A stretch of 7,525 nt of DNA from Deltaproteobacteria bacterium RIFOXYA12_FULL_61_11 (GTDB lineage: Bacteria; Bdellovibrionota_F; JAHFAK01; YA12-FULL-61-11), in NCBI GenBank assembly GCA_001799195.1, contig MGSU01000062.1, forward strand, positions 1 to 7,525, read 5' to 3'. Of the stretch, positions 1 to 7,525 are shown in pieces; the first letter of the stretch is position 1, and each line of letters opens with the position of its first letter. A program made the translations under genes and the position numbers. The notes under the pieces are model-generated. The model made no database searches. It was given only the letters and a program-made list of their open reading frames with translations, and had not been told where the DNA came from.

Positions 1-1175
1 CGCAACGGCTGTCTATCGGCTTCGGCTGCAGCTCGCAGTTCCAGGAGGGCCTTGCCCAGGACCGTGGAACGGCGTAACGGAGGTCCCGCCGCCTCGCCTT
101 CGTAGTCGACCTCACTCCTTGCGAGCACCAAGGCCGCAGGGAGGTTGGTCCCCCCAGGCTCTCGCCAGATCGGCGTGAAGCGCGTCGCTTGCAACCAAGC
201 CGAACCGTCGTAACGCACTTCGAGACCGATCGTCCGGGGCAAGGCCAGTCGCAGCGAGTAGAGTCGTCCCACGACCGAACCGTCCGGCAGAGTCTCCTGC
301 AAAGGAGCATAGCCAGGGTGCTCACCTTTTCCCGGCAAGGGGGAGAGCGGGAAGCAGATCGGAGCAGCGGGACAGCCGTCGAAGCGGAGATGCATGCAGC
401 CCTCGGTGCGGACCTCCCCGGGTCGCAGGAGCGGACGGATCGAGACTTCCAGATAACCGGCTTCCACGGGGAGCTCGGCCCGTGCCGAAGCTCCCCATTG
501 ACCATACCAACCGCTCCCCGGGGGTATTTCCGAGAAGGGTCTGAGGAGGTCCTCGCGTTCGAAGGCTTGAGCCGGGAACCGTTCGCCGACCAAGACGGCG
601 AGGATCCTGCCGAGGGGTCCGTCCAGGGCGGTCTCGAGATGCAGGGGCTTCCGCTGCAGGACGCCGTCGACGGGTTGGAGTTCCTCGAGCACGAGCCCGT
701 GGCCCATCGACCGTGGCCGAACCTGACCGAGGGTCTGTTCTATGAGCCGGCGCCTACTCTCTTCTTCCCGTATTCCCCGGAGCAGGCATCCGGACAACGG
801 CTCCTCCGAGAACAACATCGTCCAACGGGTCCCGAGCGCTGTCCGGAAACGCAATCTCCCGTCGCGCAACCGGCCCAGGGGCCGGGACAACCAGGCTCGG
901 CGGCCCGAGGGAACATCGGCAAGGCGAAGTTCACCCCCGCCTTCGGCGCACGTGAGGAGATAGTCCCCGTAGAGCAGAGGCCGGAAAGCCAGGGCCATAC
1001 CAACAGGCAGGTCGAGAGGTTCGAGGTCGTCCTCCTCCTCGAACAGGCTCACGGTCCGACCGGTCGAAAGCTCCATGACCGCGATCGGCGCTACCGGCCG
1101 CGGGTGAGCACCGGAGGCAAAAAGGGCAGGACCGCAGACCAGTCCCAGGAGCAGCACGTACCGAGGCGCTTTCAT
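1..1175 (-). CDS. Secreted protein of unknown function (3' partial)
   Basis: Reading left from ATG 1175-1173, the frame has no stop through 391 codons to the window edge; I checked every codon. The start overlaps the previous stop as ATGA (1175-1172), and TGAGG at 1187-1183 gives a Shine-Dalgarno site 7 nt upstream. The N-terminus is a good Sec signal peptide: MKAPRY, then a hydrophobic core (VLLLGLVCGPALFA), with cleavage likely after SGA at residue 23. The mature part appears to be mixed beta-strand and loop and I do not recognise a domain. An acidic patch (EEEDD, 46-50) lies near the N-terminus, and a cysteine-rich stretch at 260-274 (C260, C268, C274) could form disulfides. Further cysteines lie at 76 and 130. 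Its position as the last visible gene suggests an extracytoplasmic accessory of the same pathway. The C-terminus lies beyond the left edge, so total length is unknown. Confidence 0.8.
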   Translation of the reverse strand, partial: MKAPRYVLLLGLVCGPALFASGAHPRPVAPIAVMELSTGRTVSLFEEEDDLEPLDLPVGMALAFRPLLYGDYLLTCAEGGGELRLADVPSGRRAWLSRPLGRLRDGRLRFRTALGTRWTMLFSEEPLSGCLLRGIREEESRRRLIEQTLGQVRPRSMGHGLVLEELQPVDGVLQRKPLHLETALDGPLGRILAVLVGERFPAQAFEREDLLRPFSEIPPGSGWYGQWGASARAELPVEAGYLEVSIRPLLRPGEVRTEGCMHLRFDGCPAAPICFPLSPLPGKGEHPGYAPLQETLPDGSVVGRLYSLRLALPRTIGLEVRYDGSAWLQATRFTPIWREPGGTNLPAALVLARSEVDYEGEAAGPPLRRSTVLGKALLELRAAAEADRQPL

Positions 1176-2173
1176 CGAGGTGCCTCAGGTGGTTTGACCG
1201 GGTTCTGGGGGTGCAAGGGTTCGGCCGGTCCTGCCGCGAGCGTCCTCAATGCCTCCGCGAATGGTCTTCGGAACAGGGTGTCTTCGATCAAGCGAGAACG
1301 CACCGTCGGACTCATCTCCACGTGGAGGAAACGTCCGCTTCGCGCTCTGATGGCCCGTCCCTGGACATTGGTGAGGCCCCCGAGCTTGGGTTGGCCTGGG
1401 CCATAGACGGCCACGACGAGTTTTTCGGGCTGCCAGGACGCCAGCATGGCCGGCGCCATGATTTGGCCATCCGGCCGGCCGTCGCTGAGCAGGACGTCAA
1501 GGCCGCGATTGGCCGCCTCGAAGCCGTGCAACTGCACGAAAAGGCTACGGGGTGCTGCTTCGAGGATGCCCACGGTCACGGCTTGATAGAGCGAAGCATC
1601 GTTGTGCGCCACATCTGCCGGATGCTCCGCGTCGTTGGGCGTTTCGCCCTTCCTGCTTTTGTACCGGTGCAGGGTGTTCAGCATGAGCACGCGCGCTTCC
1701 AGGTCGCGGAACAACTCCCGGCCGAGCCGGCCGGTCTTGAGGTCGAAGAAGCTGTGCGGGGCCTGGACAATGACGTCCGTGGCTTGCCCGCAACGCCAGA
1801 GGTACACGCCCCGACCCTGGTGAATGCCAGGCACTTCGCGCAGCAACCAGAAGGACGTGGTCCCATCTTGATGGAGCTGCAGCTCCATGCCGAGACCGCG
1901 CAGCATACTCTCTGCCTCAGCGGCGACCGCACGATCGCAACTCGGGGCCGCGAGGGTGAGCTTCCTGGCCACCTCGCGCAGGGTTTGCCACATCGGCTCG
2001 GGCGGAGAATGATAGAAGACGGTCGCGCCCCCGTTTCGCCTGGCGGCTTCGAGCTTCTCCCCCAGGGTCGCGGGGGTTTTCTTCGTGGCCTCGTTCTTCG
2101 GTGCGCACCTTGCGCTACCTGTCAGGACAAGAAAGGCCACCACCATGCAGGCACAGAGAGTTCTCATCATCAT
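1172..2173 (-). CDS. Secreted putative metal-dependent amidohydrolase/carboxypeptidase-like protein (possible poly-gamma-glutamate hydrolase)
   Basis: The 333-residue frame opens with three consecutive ATGs; the third (2167) lies 6 nt after GAGAGG and is the likely start, giving 331 residues. Numbering here is from the first Met. A short Sec signal peptide follows (MRTLCACMVVAFLVLTGSA), with cleavage likely after A21; Cys23 is not in a convincing lipobox. The body has motifs expected of a zinc hydrolase: QAPHSFFD (H140, D144), LNTLHRYKS (H169, R170), DVAHND (H190), VQLHGFE (H216), then LTNVQGR (N269, R273) and FLHVEMSPTVR (E286). First His plus acid, a later His and a C-terminal Glu are typical of the carboxypeptidase/N-formylglutamate amidohydrolase/phage gamma-PGA hydrolase group, but I cannot assign the exact family. 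The proline-rich tail (311-333) looks disordered. It follows the 866-residue gene by 4 nt. A role in trimming or releasing a polymer made by the PgsC-like complex is inference. Confidence 0.85.
   Translation of the reverse strand: MMMRTLCACMVVAFLVLTGSARCAPKNEATKKTPATLGEKLEAARRNGGATVFYHSPPEPMWQTLREVARKLTLAAPSCDRAVAAEAESMLRGLGMELQLHQDGTTSFWLLREVPGIHQGRGVYLWRCGQATDVIVQAPHSFFDLKTGRLGRELFRDLEARVLMLNTLHRYKSRKGETPNDAEHPADVAHNDASLYQAVTVGILEAAPRSLFVQLHGFEAANRGLDVLLSDGRPDGQIMAPAMLASWQPEKLVVAVYGPGQPKLGGLTNVQGRAIRARSGRFLHVEMSPTVRSRLIEDTLFRRPFAEALRTLAAGPAEPLHPQNPVKPPEAPR
1183..1187 (-). promoter_or_regulatory. Shine-Dalgarno site (TGAGG) inside the end of the hydrolase-like gene
   Basis: TGAGG is embedded in the last codons of the hydrolase-like gene and lies 7 nt before the ATG at 1175, whose first bases form an ATGA overlap with that gene's stop. 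It supports the chosen start of the last gene and coupled translation. Confidence 0.6.
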
Positions 2174-2179
2174 CCTCTC
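2174..2179 (-). promoter_or_regulatory. Shine-Dalgarno site (GAGAGG) before a triple ATG
   Basis: GAGAGG touches the first of three tandem ATG codons (2173, 2170, 2167). Only the third has a normal spacing (6 nt), so translation of the hydrolase-like gene probably starts at 2167. The site overlaps the TGA stop of the 866-residue gene (2180-2178), which implies coupled translation. Confidence 0.65.
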
Positions 2180-4778
2180 AGCGATCGAATCGGCGCAGTC
2201 TGATCGCGTCGCTCGCGACCGTCCGGCCGGGTCGGTAGAACACCCGCAACCAGACCTCTTGGTCCCCTCGGTTGCGCACCACCAACCGGTGCCACCCCGG
2301 GGTGAGCTCGGTCTTCACGGGATAGGTGGCCAGTTCGGCGACGAGAGGCGCGGTGAAGGGATGATAACGGGGGAGGAAACAGCGCGGCCTAGCCTGGTCG
2401 AGGGCGAGCTCGAGACGTTCCACGGGCGAGGTGAAGGCCTCGAGCACCGATTGGCGTTTGCGCCTCGGCTTGCCCCCGTCGATGGTCACCTCGAGTTTGA
2501 CCGTCCCGGTCGCGGCATAGGCGGCGAGGTTGAGGAAGAAGGGTTCTCTCCCCAGCACGTGGAAGCCGAAACGCCGGAGCTCACCCGGCCCTATCCTGAC
2601 GACCTCGAAGGCCCGCATGATACCGCCTCGGCAGAGCGTGCCCACCTCGCCCGGTTCGAGTTTGACGTAGAGCAAGGGGTCACCGCCGAGAAAGGTATGC
2701 CGGAAGGTCAAGCGCCCCTCTCGCGGCCGGAGCCCCTCCAGGAGCAGGGTTTCGTTGCGCAACCGAGGTCTGCGGCGCTCCAAGGGGGTGCCGTCCATCA
2801 CCAGCTCGTACTCGCCGCCGAGGCTGACCTCGGCCGGCAACGAGAAGATCAGGGACAGTTGCCCGCGGCGACCCGAACGACTGTCCGGCGGCAGGAGCAC
2901 CCGCCGGGCCTGTTCCCGCTGCAACCGGCACCACACTCCACCGAGCACCTTGCCCCGGGTTTCCTCTGCCGTTAAGGGCATGAGCAGGATCTGTTCCTGC
3001 CCTTGGTCGAGGATGGTCCCCGAGGCCCAGTCACCCTCGGTCTCGTGTCCCGTACCCTCGCCCACGGTCTCTCCATCGGGCAGCTCGAGACGGACTTGGG
3101 CCAGCAACGTAGCAAGCCGGTTCTGCTCCGTGATGAGGGGCAGGTCCCGAGGACTCATCAACTGCCAATGGTCCGAACGCTGGCGCGGATAGCGCCACAC
3201 CCGGCCGAGCAGATCCCGGGGGTAGACCTCTTCGTCCGCGGGATGGAGCAAGGTCTCGGAGAAACAGCGGACCGCCAGGATCCGCTCGGCCTCGAGTTCG
3301 ATCCAGCGCGCTCCGAGGGGCGAGCGCACGTAGAGGGTGTGCGGTTCTGAGACCCAGCTCTGGTCGTTCTCCGGCAACAACGCCGTCAAGGTTTCGAACC
3401 TGCTGAGTCTGCTCACGAGCGTACGTTCGACCGCTTGCAGCTTCCGGCCCTGATCGTCGAGGAAACCGAGGCGCAGGACGAAGGGCTGGGGTTGTTCCCC
3501 CGGTTGCAGGTATTCGCGAACGTCCAGACGATACATGGCGTTGAAATTACTTCCCAACGTGGAGAAACCGAGGGTGCCGCCCGGTCCTGGCACTACGAGA
3601 TGGGTCTCTAACCGAGCGAGCTCGGGGGTCAGGTAATGCACCCCGGGATCGACCTGGTCCGGGATGAGATTACTGTAACCGACGGGCTCGAGGCGATCCT
3701 CTCGTACGCTGAACTGGACGAAGACCTCCAGGGGTTCTGGATTGTGCAGTACGACGCTGCGCACCCCGCCCGGCAACTTCACCCACTCGAGTGTGCCGGG
3801 GCGCAACTCCAGCGGTCCTGCCGGCAGATCCCGTTCTTCTCCGGCACGATGCGCCAGGGAACTCACTTCCAGCACGACCGGGCGTTCCGGACTGAGCAAG
3901 GCCAAACCGAGTTCCCCTTCCCCCCGGACATTGACCACCTTGCTGCGCCCCGGGGGAATGGCCACGGTCACATCCTCGCTCTGCCCACCCTGGTCGTAGA
4001 GACCGGAAAAATAGATACGCTTGGTAGGAACGACCGTATTCTGGTCCGTGAAGGCTTCGATCCTGCCCCATTTGGTCGGGAACAGCTTGCGTTCCTCGTC
4101 GAAGGACAGCTCGTCGAGGGTCTGCAACCCCATTTTGCGGGCCAACTCTTGCCGTTCGTCGTTCCGGCTCTGCCGGAGCATCTCTTCCCGCTCCGGGAGG
4201 GTGCGTTCCTCGAGGCGATGGATGCGGAGCAGGACTGGGAAGGAGGACTCGAGGAGAGTCACCCTGATCCTGCCCCCCCGCGGGAAGTAGCCGAGCACCG
4301 GGAGCGACGATACGCGCGCATCGGTCAACTCGCCCTCTCCGGGTTTGAGGAACGCATTCTCGATGTGTCCCCCCACTTCCAGGGGAATCTTGCTCTGCCT
4401 CGTGCGGATGTAGAAGGTCTGTTCGTGCGTGACGGTATTGGACTGATCGATCAGCTCGGTTCTGAGCGAGTAATCGACCACACTGTAGGGATTCAGAGCC
4501 TGGTTCGGGGGCAGGAAGCAATGCGAGACCAGGAAGAACTTCCGGTCATCGATGGAGACGTTGAAGTACAAACGTTGGTCCGGTTCGAGCATGTAGAGCA
4601 GCATGGTTGCGGCCTGCTCCTTCTTGTACTCGAACTCGCCTCCGCTGCGACGATCACCTGTCAGGAGCATCAAGGCCAGGACCCCGGCCACGAGACCGCC
4701 GCCCACCAGGACCGAGACGAAACGAGAAACACTCGCCGTTCGCCACAGTTCCTCGATGTCTCCATACCCTCTGTACAT
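2178..4778 (-). CDS. Large membrane-anchored, beta-rich extracytoplasmic protein of unknown family
   Basis: I do not recognise the family of this 866-residue protein. It starts with a short cytoplasmic stretch, then one hydrophobic segment (about 20-40, SVLVGGGLVAGVLALMLL) followed by GDRR. No signal peptidase site is evident, so it is probably a signal anchor with the body outside the cytoplasm. Most of the rest reads as successive beta-strand segments with many Pro-Gly turns. One exception is a charged, probably helical stretch at about 186-232 rich in Glu and Arg. The C-terminal 45 residues (TPGWHRLVVRNRGDQEVWLR) look like a beta-sandwich edge. Cysteines are few. The ATG at 4778 is supported by GAGG five bases upstream, overlapping the stop of the PgsC-like gene; the gap is 7 nt. 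This placement suggests a periplasmic partner of the PgsC-like protein, such as a scaffold or polymer-handling subunit. No PgsA/CapA-type motif is apparent. Confidence 0.85.
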   Translation of the reverse strand: MYRGYGDIEELWRTASVSRFVSVLVGGGLVAGVLALMLLTGDRRSGGEFEYKKEQAATMLLYMLEPDQRLYFNVSIDDRKFFLVSHCFLPPNQALNPYSVVDYSLRTELIDQSNTVTHEQTFYIRTRQSKIPLEVGGHIENAFLKPGEGELTDARVSSLPVLGYFPRGGRIRVTLLESSFPVLLRIHRLEERTLPEREEMLRQSRNDERQELARKMGLQTLDELSFDEERKLFPTKWGRIEAFTDQNTVVPTKRIYFSGLYDQGGQSEDVTVAIPPGRSKVVNVRGEGELGLALLSPERPVVLEVSSLAHRAGEERDLPAGPLELRPGTLEWVKLPGGVRSVVLHNPEPLEVFVQFSVREDRLEPVGYSNLIPDQVDPGVHYLTPELARLETHLVVPGPGGTLGFSTLGSNFNAMYRLDVREYLQPGEQPQPFVLRLGFLDDQGRKLQAVERTLVSRLSRFETLTALLPENDQSWVSEPHTLYVRSPLGARWIELEAERILAVRCFSETLLHPADEEVYPRDLLGRVWRYPRQRSDHWQLMSPRDLPLITEQNRLATLLAQVRLELPDGETVGEGTGHETEGDWASGTILDQGQEQILLMPLTAEETRGKVLGGVWCRLQREQARRVLLPPDSRSGRRGQLSLIFSLPAEVSLGGEYELVMDGTPLERRRPRLRNETLLLEGLRPREGRLTFRHTFLGGDPLLYVKLEPGEVGTLCRGGIMRAFEVVRIGPGELRRFGFHVLGREPFFLNLAAYAATGTVKLEVTIDGGKPRRKRQSVLEAFTSPVERLELALDQARPRCFLPRYHPFTAPLVAELATYPVKTELTPGWHRLVVRNRGDQEVWLRVFYRPGRTVASDAIRLRRFDR

Positions 4779-4783
4779 TCCGA

Positions 4784-4788
4784 CCTCA
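4784..4788 (-). promoter_or_regulatory. Shine-Dalgarno site (TGAGG) of the 866-residue gene, overlapping the upstream stop
   Basis: On the minus strand TGAGG includes the TGA stop of the PgsC-like gene, and its GAGG lies 5 nt before the ATG at 4778. It fixes the start of the 866-residue gene and suggests translational coupling. Confidence 0.7.
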
Positions 4789-7525
4789 GAAACGCACGCA
4801 ACTGTCTTGGAACACGGGATGCTTCAACGTGAATTCGGAGGCCAGACGGTGCAGGTCAAAAGCCCCCTCCCCGACCGTGACTGCGCAACGGGCCCAATCG
4901 TCCTCGGCCACGAGGTGGATGCGCGTGGCGCGCAGGTCGACCACGGCCCGGATCGAGACCTTGCGCTCGAGGAGAGTTTCGAGCGCCCGCAGGTTGGAAC
5001 TGACCGCGAAATCCTCGAGGTAGGTCTTGAGCATGCGGAGGGAACTCAGGTGAGCTCCCCGGCCGGCCCGGCGGGGGTTGCGGCCCGGTTGGTTGAGCAC
5101 CTCGACCAAGCTGGAGAGGTAGCCGCTCTCCTCGGGAATCCGCAGATAGCGGAAGAGCAATAACATCCGCTCCAGCCGGGAACCTTCCATGATCGAACGG
5201 CGCAGCTCGTCCCCGATCCACAGGATGGCGAAATGTCCGGGCAGGAGGTTCTTGACCAGGTTGCCGATGGGGTTGCTCTCGCCGTGCAGCCCATAATCTT
5301 GATGGGAGCCGCGGTAATGGGTCGCTTGGGTCCCCTCGGCGCGGATCAGCTCGAGGAGCTGTCGACCCATGGTCGGCACGTTGTTCTCGTCAAGGGCTTC
5401 CTCGCCGAGGCTGAGCACCACCGGGGACTGCATCCGCCAGCCCTGACCGCCTCGGACCAGGGCGACCAGGAGGTCATCGGCCTCACCATACTCCTGCAGG
5501 AAGTGCCGCACAACCACGTGAGCCAGAGAGCGCGGGGCGTTCTCGCGCAGGATGTCGCTGCGCCCCCAGGGATCGGCCATAGCAGAACTCCCTGGAATAA
5601 ATAAGGCTCTCGCCCTGAAACTCTCAAACCACCTCGCTGCTAAACCGAGAGTCCCGCTCTCGGCCAGAGGTCGGGGTGGAATGAGCAACCAGGGCTTCGC
5701 CTCGCCGAGTCGGAAGACATAGGTGCCCCAGCCTTTGTTCTGCTCGTCGTCGCGGAGTTCCCGCAGAATGATGAAGGTATCGTCGTTTTTCTCGTCGCTG
5801 AACCAGATGAACTGGTACCCGAGGAAGTAGGCCGAGAGTTGCAGGGAGCGGAGCTGTTCTTCGAAGCGGGGGGTGCCGAGCAAGGGCCCGAGGGAGGGGA
5901 TGCGGTGCAGCAATTCGGTGCGGAAGTACAACAGTTCGTGCCATTGCGGTACGACATACCTGCCAGTGCCGGCGCGATGGATGAAGTACTTCTGCTCGAG
6001 GACCCAACGTTCGATCAGACCGGTCACGGTCTCGAAGTGGGCGAGGCGTTTGAGGTCTCCGGTGAACTTGTAGCGCGGTGATACCTCGGCCACCGTACTA
6101 CGCGGCAGGTACAACACGCTGAAGTTGGCCTCCGAGGACGTCCACTGGTAGAGCCCCGGTTCAGGGTTGTGCCACGAGAACTCGAGGTTCGGAAAATCGC
6201 CGCGCAAGCGATCGAGGTAGACATTGCGGGGGAGATTGTAGCGCACGTGCCAGGCCGAGCGTTCCTGCTCGGGCACCCGTACCTGGATCACGTCGTGCCC
6301 CCGCAGAGCGCTGTAGACGAGGTTGAACAGGTCGTCGCCGCTCTTGGCGGCATCGGCCCAGGCTTCCCCCCGCGTGGGTTCGTCGATCCCGGCGATGAAG
6401 ACGGCTCTGGCCTGGGTCGACTTGAGCAGGACATAGGCTCCTTCCAGGGCCAGGGGTTCCCGCAGGGGATGAACCACCTGCAGCACCGGACCGGGAGCGC
6501 CCGGTCGGAGCAGGTACACCCCCAACCCACTGCGCTGCATCAGGGAAGCGAGGTCCTCGTGGATCACCAAGTACGAGCCGAGTTCGGGATCGACATGGTG
6601 CCGGCAGGCCAAGGTACGTTCCCCCGGTATACGGGTTTCCCGTTCGATCATCCGACAGATGGCCAAACCATCGTCCATCTCCAGGGCACGGGTCAGGGCC
6701 CTGCGGTACCGCGTGGACACGGTCGGCCGCAGATGTTGCTCGCGCGCGAACCCTTGGGTCAGGACGAAGGCCTTGGAGAGGATGAGGTCTTTGAAGAGGA
6801 AACCCGGGCTGCTCTCATGCTGGGGGTTGGCGGCGGTCAGCGTTCGCGCCGATACCTCGTTCCAGACTTCCTCACCGGTGTGCAAGACGAAGCCGAGCAG
6901 ACTGCCGAGGGTGAAACCGTAGGCCGCGGTGAGCATGGTCGGCATCAGCACCCTCGGCACGCTGTGCTTGTCCAAGATCTTGATCGCCAGCAACGCCGGT
7001 AGGAGATACCCGAACCCGAACAGATCGTTCAGCTTCATCCTGGGCAGTTCGGGGAAGAAGATCGCGGTGACCCACTTGATGACGAAGGTCAGGAAGAAGA
7101 TCAGGGTGATACGCCGGCCACCCCCGACATTGATGGAGCGCAACCCGGGTAGGCGCAGGCACAGTTTGAAGGCGACGAGGGCCAGGAAGACTTCGCCGAG
7201 GGTGCTGAGGACCTTCTCGGGGATGAAGAACACGGCCGAGATCAGGGCCGGCACCATGATGCCGTTGAAATCCCAGCCATAACGCATGTTGAAGCGGGAG
7301 GCCAACATGGCCGTGGCCACGATGATCACGTAGATCTTCGGCGCGGCCAGGAAGTTGACGACGAGGTCCTCGTAGGTGAGTTGGAACTTGCCCAGATTGA
7401 GGTTGGTGGTCGGGATGAGGACATAGGCCAGGACGAGGTAGGTCAGTCCGGTCACCGTGGACTTTTCGAAGAGCCCTCTGGCAAGGCCGCTCTTCCAAAA
7501 AGAATTTGCCAGTAAGGGGACCAGG
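4786..7525 (-). CDS. PgsC/CapC-like polytopic membrane protein with long C-terminal region holding two degenerate hydrolase-like domains (5' partial)
   Basis: The frame ends at TGA 4788-4786 and has no stop up to the right edge. The GTG at 7455 has no Shine-Dalgarno site and is probably internal. Residues below count from that GTG. The codons upstream of it read LVPLLANSFWKSGL, which resembles the C-terminal IVPGLIANTIQKQGL element of Bacillus PgsC as I remember it, so a first PgsC-like unit is cut by the window. A second unit follows at about 35-192: hydrophobic segments near 35-51, 64-79, 83-101, 115-134, 146-161 and 168-191, a GIMVPAL motif at 65-71, GGGRR at 111-115 and LLPALLA at 151-157. 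PgsC/CapC proteins are membrane subunits of poly-gamma-glutamate capsule synthases and are usually only about 150 residues long. The remaining 690 or so residues are soluble. They contain two diverged copies (about 265-460 and 525-765) of the domain encoded by the gene at 1172-2173. The last 120 residues are unassigned. PgsC membership is fairly secure; the function of the soluble part is inferred. Confidence 0.85.
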   Translation of the reverse strand, partial: LVPLLANSFWKSGLARGLFEKSTVTGLTYLVLAYVLIPTTNLNLGKFQLTYEDLVVNFLAAPKIYVIIVATAMLASRFNMRYGWDFNGIMVPALISAVFFIPEKVLSTLGEVFLALVAFKLCLRLPGLRSINVGGGRRITLIFFLTFVIKWVTAIFFPELPRMKLNDLFGFGYLLPALLAIKILDKHSVPRVLMPTMLTAAYGFTLGSLLGFVLHTGEEVWNEVSARTLTAANPQHESSPGFLFKDLILSKAFVLTQGFAREQHLRPTVSTRYRRALTRALEMDDGLAICRMIERETRIPGERTLACRHHVDPELGSYLVIHEDLASLMQRSGLGVYLLRPGAPGPVLQVVHPLREPLALEGAYVLLKSTQARAVFIAGIDEPTRGEAWADAAKSGDDLFNLVYSALRGHDVIQVRVPEQERSAWHVRYNLPRNVYLDRLRGDFPNLEFSWHNPEPGLYQWTSSEANFSVLYLPRSTVAEVSPRYKFTGDLKRLAHFETVTGLIERWVLEQKYFIHRAGTGRYVVPQWHELLYFRTELLHRIPSLGPLLGTPRFEEQLRSLQLSAYFLGYQFIWFSDEKNDDTFIILRELRDDEQNKGWGTYVFRLGEAKPWLLIPPRPLAESGTLGLAARWFESFRARALFIPGSSAMADPWGRSDILRENAPRSLAHVVVRHFLQEYGEADDLLVALVRGGQGWRMQSPVVLSLGEEALDENNVPTMGRQLLELIRAEGTQATHYRGSHQDYGLHGESNPIGNLVKNLLPGHFAILWIGDELRRSIMEGSRLERMLLLFRYLRIPEESGYLSSLVEVLNQPGRNPRRAGRGAHLSSLRMLKTYLEDFAVSSNLRALETLLERKVSIRAVVDLRATRIHLVAEDDWARCAVTVGEGAFDLHRLASEFTLKHPVFQDSCVRF

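Follow-up and report, generated by a model that had tools for sequence, protein, structure and literature searches.

The 7,525-bp stretch of DNA analyzed here (hereafter the window) encodes a 333 aa protein that is probably a zinc amidohydrolase, exported and cutting the gamma-glutamyl-type polymer that its own operon produces. The protein would belong to the carboxypeptidase clan, as a divergent sister to the PghP and PghL gamma-PGA hydrolases. For the operon as a whole, we see an even chance that it constitutes undescribed Gram-negative machinery for making and exporting a polyglutamate-like polymer, with its own trimming hydrolase, two dead CapC-borne polymer-handling domains and an outer-membrane exporter replacing CapA. 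A literature search of papers available without subscription returned no published description of such a CapC fusion or operon. The features discussed below are collected in Table 1.

Table 1. Genes, domains and site codons in the window (window coordinates; all features on the minus strand).
Feature	Position	Strand	Remarks
Predicted secreted metallohydrolase, 333 aa	1172..2173	-	ATG start
H140 codon	1754..1756	-	predicted Zn ligand (PghP H40); profile alignment, conservation
D144 codon	1742..1744	-	predicted acidic Zn ligand (replaces PghP E45); conservation, putative role
H190 codon	1604..1606	-	profile-aligned with PghP H78; Arg in 3/17
H216 codon	1526..1528	-	predicted Zn ligand (PghP H103); profile alignment, conservation
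E286 codon	1316..1318	-	predicted catalytic Glu (PghP E165); profile alignment, conservation
R292 codon	1298..1300	-	predicted substrate-carboxylate anchor (PghP/PghL R171, also at E+6)
CapC/PgsC fusion, 1053 aa	4786..7524 (to 7947 on contig)	-	two CapC and two degenerate hydrolase domains
Degenerate hydrolase copy 1, aa about 440-650	5998..6630	-	weak here, strong in the Massilia ortholog
Degenerate hydrolase copy 2, aa about 655-935	5143..5985	-	E286 to W, H216 to R, R292 position kept
866-aa protein	2178..4778	-	N-terminal hydrophobic segment; no known family; operon position conserved
391-aa N-terminal part of a gene truncated by the contig end	3..1175	-	equivalent to the 1300-2000-aa barrel-like protein by position only

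The sequence GAGAGG precedes the hydrolase gene, which begins 4 nt past the stop codon of the gene for the 866-aa protein and whose own stop codon overlaps the start of the next gene as ATGA; this spacing places the gene inside an operon. Its N-terminus, judged by eye, resembles a Sec signal (MMMRTLCACMVVAFLVLTGSARCA), and several relatives carry T9SS sorting tails, so the family appears to be typically secreted. Searches of the protein against Pfam, NCBIfam and PHROGs profiles gave no match at E≤1, and nothing meaningful was found among PDB sequences. The first-pass annotation had assigned the gene to a PgsC operon, and the neighbor at 4786-7524 is indeed a CapC/PgsC protein (Pfam, 56.5 bits). 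At position 7525 the window ends within this CapC fusion gene, in a stretch of undetermined bases translated as X, and the contig continues beyond it.

The same annotation had proposed an active site formed by H140, D144, H216 and E286 together with an N269/R273 pair, and all six residues are found exactly where it put them. Among 28 relatives of the hydrolase, P139, H140, D144, R170, D187, H190, H216, L264, F282, H284 and E286 are invariant, and H140, D144, R170, D187, H216, H284 and E286 remain so once more divergent relatives are added. All 17 operon-type hydrolases possess H140, D/E144, R170, D187, H216, N269, H284, E286 and R292, with R273, H169 and H190 variable in the same set. Conservation thus bears out H140, D144, H216, E286 and N269; the pair as such fails because R273 is not conserved, N269 alone being kept in every operon-type copy. 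R170, D187, H284 and R292, which the initial list lacked, are conserved as well. The metal motif takes the form HxxxD (H140-S-F-F-D144) and is invariant in relatives. H169 had been considered as the counterpart of PghP H78 and was dropped, H190 being preferred in the profile alignment and H169 being variable. A second paralog of the hydrolase, with Glu replacing Asp at position 144, occurs beside a long PgsB on the opposite strand at another locus (L111, 18200-19399, minus strand).

An AlphaFold2 model of the hydrolase based on the family alignment (pLDDT 82.7, pTM 0.83) shows the zinc carboxypeptidase-clan fold in VIA-align matches, in agreement with the zinc carboxypeptidase-type site suggested at the outset. 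Foldseek alone was weak, with two matches at E≤0.001, and the VIA comparison was clearer. The top VIA-align matches were the N-formylglutamate amidohydrolase (FGase)-like proteins 2odf (Z 13.5) and 2q7s (Z 11.7); the gamma-PGA hydrolases 5onj, 21dc and 3a9l, a set comprising PghL, PghP and the phage PM1 hydrolase, scored Z 11.6, 11.5 and 11.3, with rmsd 3.4-3.6 over 173-175 residues. M14 zinc carboxypeptidases share the clan fold and the arrangement of a His/acid/His metal site with a distal Glu, but the hydrolase lacks their HxxE motif and matches their fold with a lower Z (about 10.6).

Profile comparison distinguishes among these candidates. The first-pass annotation had proposed a comparison with PF05908, and hhalign of the hydrolase family against a set of 13 PF05908 proteins, including phiNIT1 PghP, gave a score of 31.1 (P 7.5e-4; 1.5e-5 in global mode), above every one of 150 column shuffles (maximum 24.3) and the reversed control (12.6). 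The alignment pairs H140, H190, H216, E286 and R292 with the PghP residues listed in Table 1. The corresponding comparison with 12 FGase proteins scored 19.5 (P 0.066), about the shuffle level (maximum 18.9). Because hhalign beats the shuffles for PF05908 and not for FGase, the sequence relationship of the family, as read from its profiles, is to the gamma-PGA hydrolases, from which fold likeness alone cannot separate FGase. Single hydrolase sequences scored near noise against the PF05908 HMM, and in the Pfam search the window hydrolase had no PF05908 match at E≤1 and its closest operon relative reached 14.9 bits, under the gathering cut-off of 22; the hydrolases are therefore regarded as a distant sister family. 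The likeness to N-formylglutamate amidohydrolases noticed initially accordingly holds for the fold, where PF05013-type proteins (2odf, 2q7s) give the top Z scores, and not for the profile. An enzyme of FGase or desuccinylase type with a small-molecule substrate would fit the leading structural match, but the motifs differ, there is no Pfam match, the profile similarity stays at the level of the shuffles, and the signal-like N-terminus and operon context point to an exported, operon-linked protein, leaving this explanation very improbable.

With PghP and PghL (PF05908, MEROPS M86), in turn, the hydrolase shares the fold, the order His-acid-His-His-Glu-Arg, the catalytic Glu with Arg at E+6, a conserved Asn ahead of the Glu strand and a gamma-glutamyl polymer as candidate substrate. 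In PghL, zinc is held by H41, E46 and H102, E165 is catalytic, and R171 anchors the substrate carboxylate, the R171S substitution abolishing activity (PMC6506827). R171 is invariant in the collected PF05908 set, as is its equivalent R292 in the operon copies (17/17). Substrate binding in PghP involves a His-x-Thr-Ser element (H78, T80, S81), and the profile places H190 opposite H78. The hydrolase departs from PghP in its HxxxD motif, PghP having HxxxxE with a bidentate Glu ligand, in being encoded within a synthesis operon and in having no Pfam match above cut-off; relative to PghP and PghL it adds an N-terminal domain, the invariant R170, D187 and H284, and the signal-like N-terminus. The low Pfam scores, the near-noise scores of single sequences, the HxxxD motif and the replacement of H190 by Arg in three of the 17 operon-type proteins count against the preferred reading as a polymer-cutting amidohydrolase. 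Under that reading, H140, D144 and H216 would bind a single zinc ion, E286 would activate water at the amide or attack it directly, and R292 would hold the substrate alpha-carboxylate in the manner of PghL R171.

The neighboring CapC fusion, with PF14102 domains scoring 72.9 and 60.0 bits, carries further members of the family. When compared with the hydrolase profile, the Massilia CapC fusion matched at aa 406-544 (E 7e-16) and aa 651-808 (E 1e-11), and the window protein at aa 698-786 (E 3e-12) in addition to a weak first copy; the best of 900 control shuffles reached E 0.63. The fused copies mostly have Arg at the H216 position, copy 2 mostly has Trp or Tyr at that of E286, and H140 is usually lost, with R292 retained in most copy-2 domains; the letters of copy 1 are unreliable owing to its poor alignment in several of the proteins. 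A model of copy 2 (pLDDT 81, pTM 0.84) adopts the hydrolase fold, with Z 11.0 to PghL and 10.7 to PghP, and provides weak independent support because its alignment consisted mostly of hydrolase sequences. The operon thus tolerates catalytically inactive versions of this fold, which lends some plausibility to a non-catalytic, polymer-binding or structural role for the stand-alone protein as well, its metal site being kept for stability. The stand-alone copies nevertheless hold the full site in 17 of 17 cases, including the predicted catalytic Glu, and it is the fused copies that lose it, which makes a purely structural role quite improbable.

The hydrolase forms part of a recurrent operon type composed of a CHASE2 sensor, the CapC fusion, a protein of ~850 aa, the hydrolase, a large barrel-like protein and a HEAT-PgsB ligase. 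The window contig shows the order GspE-like ATPase, response-regulator-GGDEF, Hpt, CHASE2 sensor, CapC fusion (1053 aa), 866-aa protein, hydrolase and a protein of 391+ aa. In Massilia glaciei, a CHASE2 protein, a CapC fusion (1046 aa), an 820-aa protein, the hydrolase, a large protein and a long PgsB-like ligase follow one another on one strand, and a Myxococcales MAG has a CapC fusion, a protein of 661 to 761 aa (start uncertain) and the hydrolase. Genes upstream of the operon (L005, 10668-15299) encode a GspE-like ATPase that has GAF and MshEN domains, a response regulator-GAF-GGDEF protein and a stand-alone Hpt, and control of the operon by cyclic-di-GMP is possible.

The long ligase of the window genome lies on another contig, where its open reading frame runs off the end, as expected if that contig adjoins the window contig. 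It shares 45% identity with the Massilia ligase and 42% with that of the Myxococcales MAG, and scores 198.5 bits against TIGR04012, 24 bits under the equivalog cut-off of 222.7; this shortfall and the location on another contig also count against the preferred explanation. In Massilia and the Myxococcota relatives the long ligase sits on the same contig and strand as the operon, and two genomes having the hydrolase family only contain no relative of it. Searches with three long ligases as queries found the gene in 3 of 392 genomes from Massilia's family and, at no less than 450 bits (long type), in 37 of 377 Myxococcota genomes, the others scoring about 148-220 bits (ordinary PgsB). Of twenty regions taken, 15 had sufficient length. 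In 13 of these the hydrolase gene precedes the ligase gene, both on one strand, and 12 of the 13 also encode a CapC fusion still further upstream. One of the other two regions has a divergent CapC fusion and no hydrolase, and one has neither. Three of the 13 regions are mutually close relatives, so the independent cases are fewer.

Between hydrolase and ligase these loci encode a protein of 1300-2000 aa that is homologous among them, especially at the C-terminus, and that looks strand-rich and outer-membrane-barrel-like. Profile searches with it returned just one weak TPR match, in one locus, so that its export role is one we infer, and the 391-aa open reading frame of the window has no convincing sequence match to it. 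In the mechanism we propose, the PgsB-like ligase and the CapC fusion would make the polymer and pass it over the inner membrane, the CapC fusion's two dead hydrolase domains would probably hold or guide the chain, the large barrel-like protein would probably export it, and the live hydrolase would trim, release or clear chains in the periplasm. BcsZ and AlgL, encoded beside their polysaccharide synthases, offer comparable cases. As the ligase is just PgsB-like, the polymer could hold another amino acid.

Compared with the Bacillus PgsBCA/CapBCA polyglutamate synthase, the operon likewise combines a PgsB-like ligase with CapC domains, but CapC is present twice and joined to a pair of degenerate hydrolase domains, the ligase is of the long type (one relative has HEAT repeats), and CapA/PgsA is missing from the operon, the large barrel-like protein, the 850-aa protein and the CHASE2 sensor standing in its place. 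A search for CapA (PF09587) in 10 operon genomes gave no match in three (G127, G224 and G660); matches in the other seven were on other contigs or distant, except for one in G672, located on the same contig as the ligase and about 16-18 kb away.

Beyond this operon type, a protein search initially yielded three remote relatives of the hydrolase, and the family is now seen to be spread over many phyla, with 33 loci in named genomes (e.g., Myxococcales, Flavobacteriia, Ignavibacteria, Alpha- and Betaproteobacteria) and members on six plasmids of Streptomyces, Chroococcidiopsis and Corynebacterium. Several of these loci are linked to canonical pgs genes: the homolog lies directly downstream of pgsB-pgsC in Chroococcidiopsis, follows pgsB-pgsC at two Ignavibacteria loci (L022, L035), adjoins capA with pgsB two genes off in Streptomyces finlayi, and adjoins a capA homolog with a pgsB homolog nearby in S. 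clavuligerus; at a third Ignavibacteria locus (L026) pgsBC is on the opposite strand at a distance of a few kb. These loci belong to unrelated genomes. Alternatively, a metallo-amidohydrolase of this clan might target the cell wall or some other peptide (peptidoglycan gamma-D-Glu bonds, for instance) and not a secreted polymer, which would accord with the many amide substrates of carboxypeptidase-clan folds and with the many family members in genomes without pgs genes (a CapC match is missing in 19 of the 29 genomes searched). Against it stand the repeated independent linkage to pgsB/pgsC and to the long PgsB operon, the conservation of R292 at E+6 as in PghL, and the dead hydrolase copies fused to CapC itself, and we consider it unlikely. 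On genome context, a gamma-glutamyl polymer, which had been named from the outset as the natural substrate, remains the best candidate for the hydrolase. Among non-Bacillales species, an earlier survey saw PghP-type genes accompanied by pgsB in just 13% (PMC4497714). The new family is the opposite of those surveyed genes in being often operon-linked.

Polyglutamate capsules are known mainly from Gram-positive bacteria, and the corresponding hydrolases there come from phages or from other parts of the genome. Here, a conserved Gram-negative-type operon appears to have its own hydrolase, and two degenerate copies of this enzyme have become part of the membrane subunit. This provides a testable hypothesis for polymer handling over a double membrane and for the product of the myxobacterial and Massilia loci, and characterizes a widespread family of putatively secreted enzymes without a Pfam entry.

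A phage origin of the hydrolase was considered and is unsupported, with no homolog in viral contigs or phage records. On a Corynebacterium plasmid, a family member forms part of a larger protein within a phage-tail gene block (L045, 3834-6050; cf. phage PghP). In UBP7-type bacteria, the hydrolase domain lies N-terminal to a long domain that by eye is prolyl oligopeptidase-like (L023, 20-2866; L024, 7665-10769), and on a Delftia plasmid a PF05908 gamma-PGA hydrolase gene immediately precedes Qat anti-phage genes (L063, 286-891).
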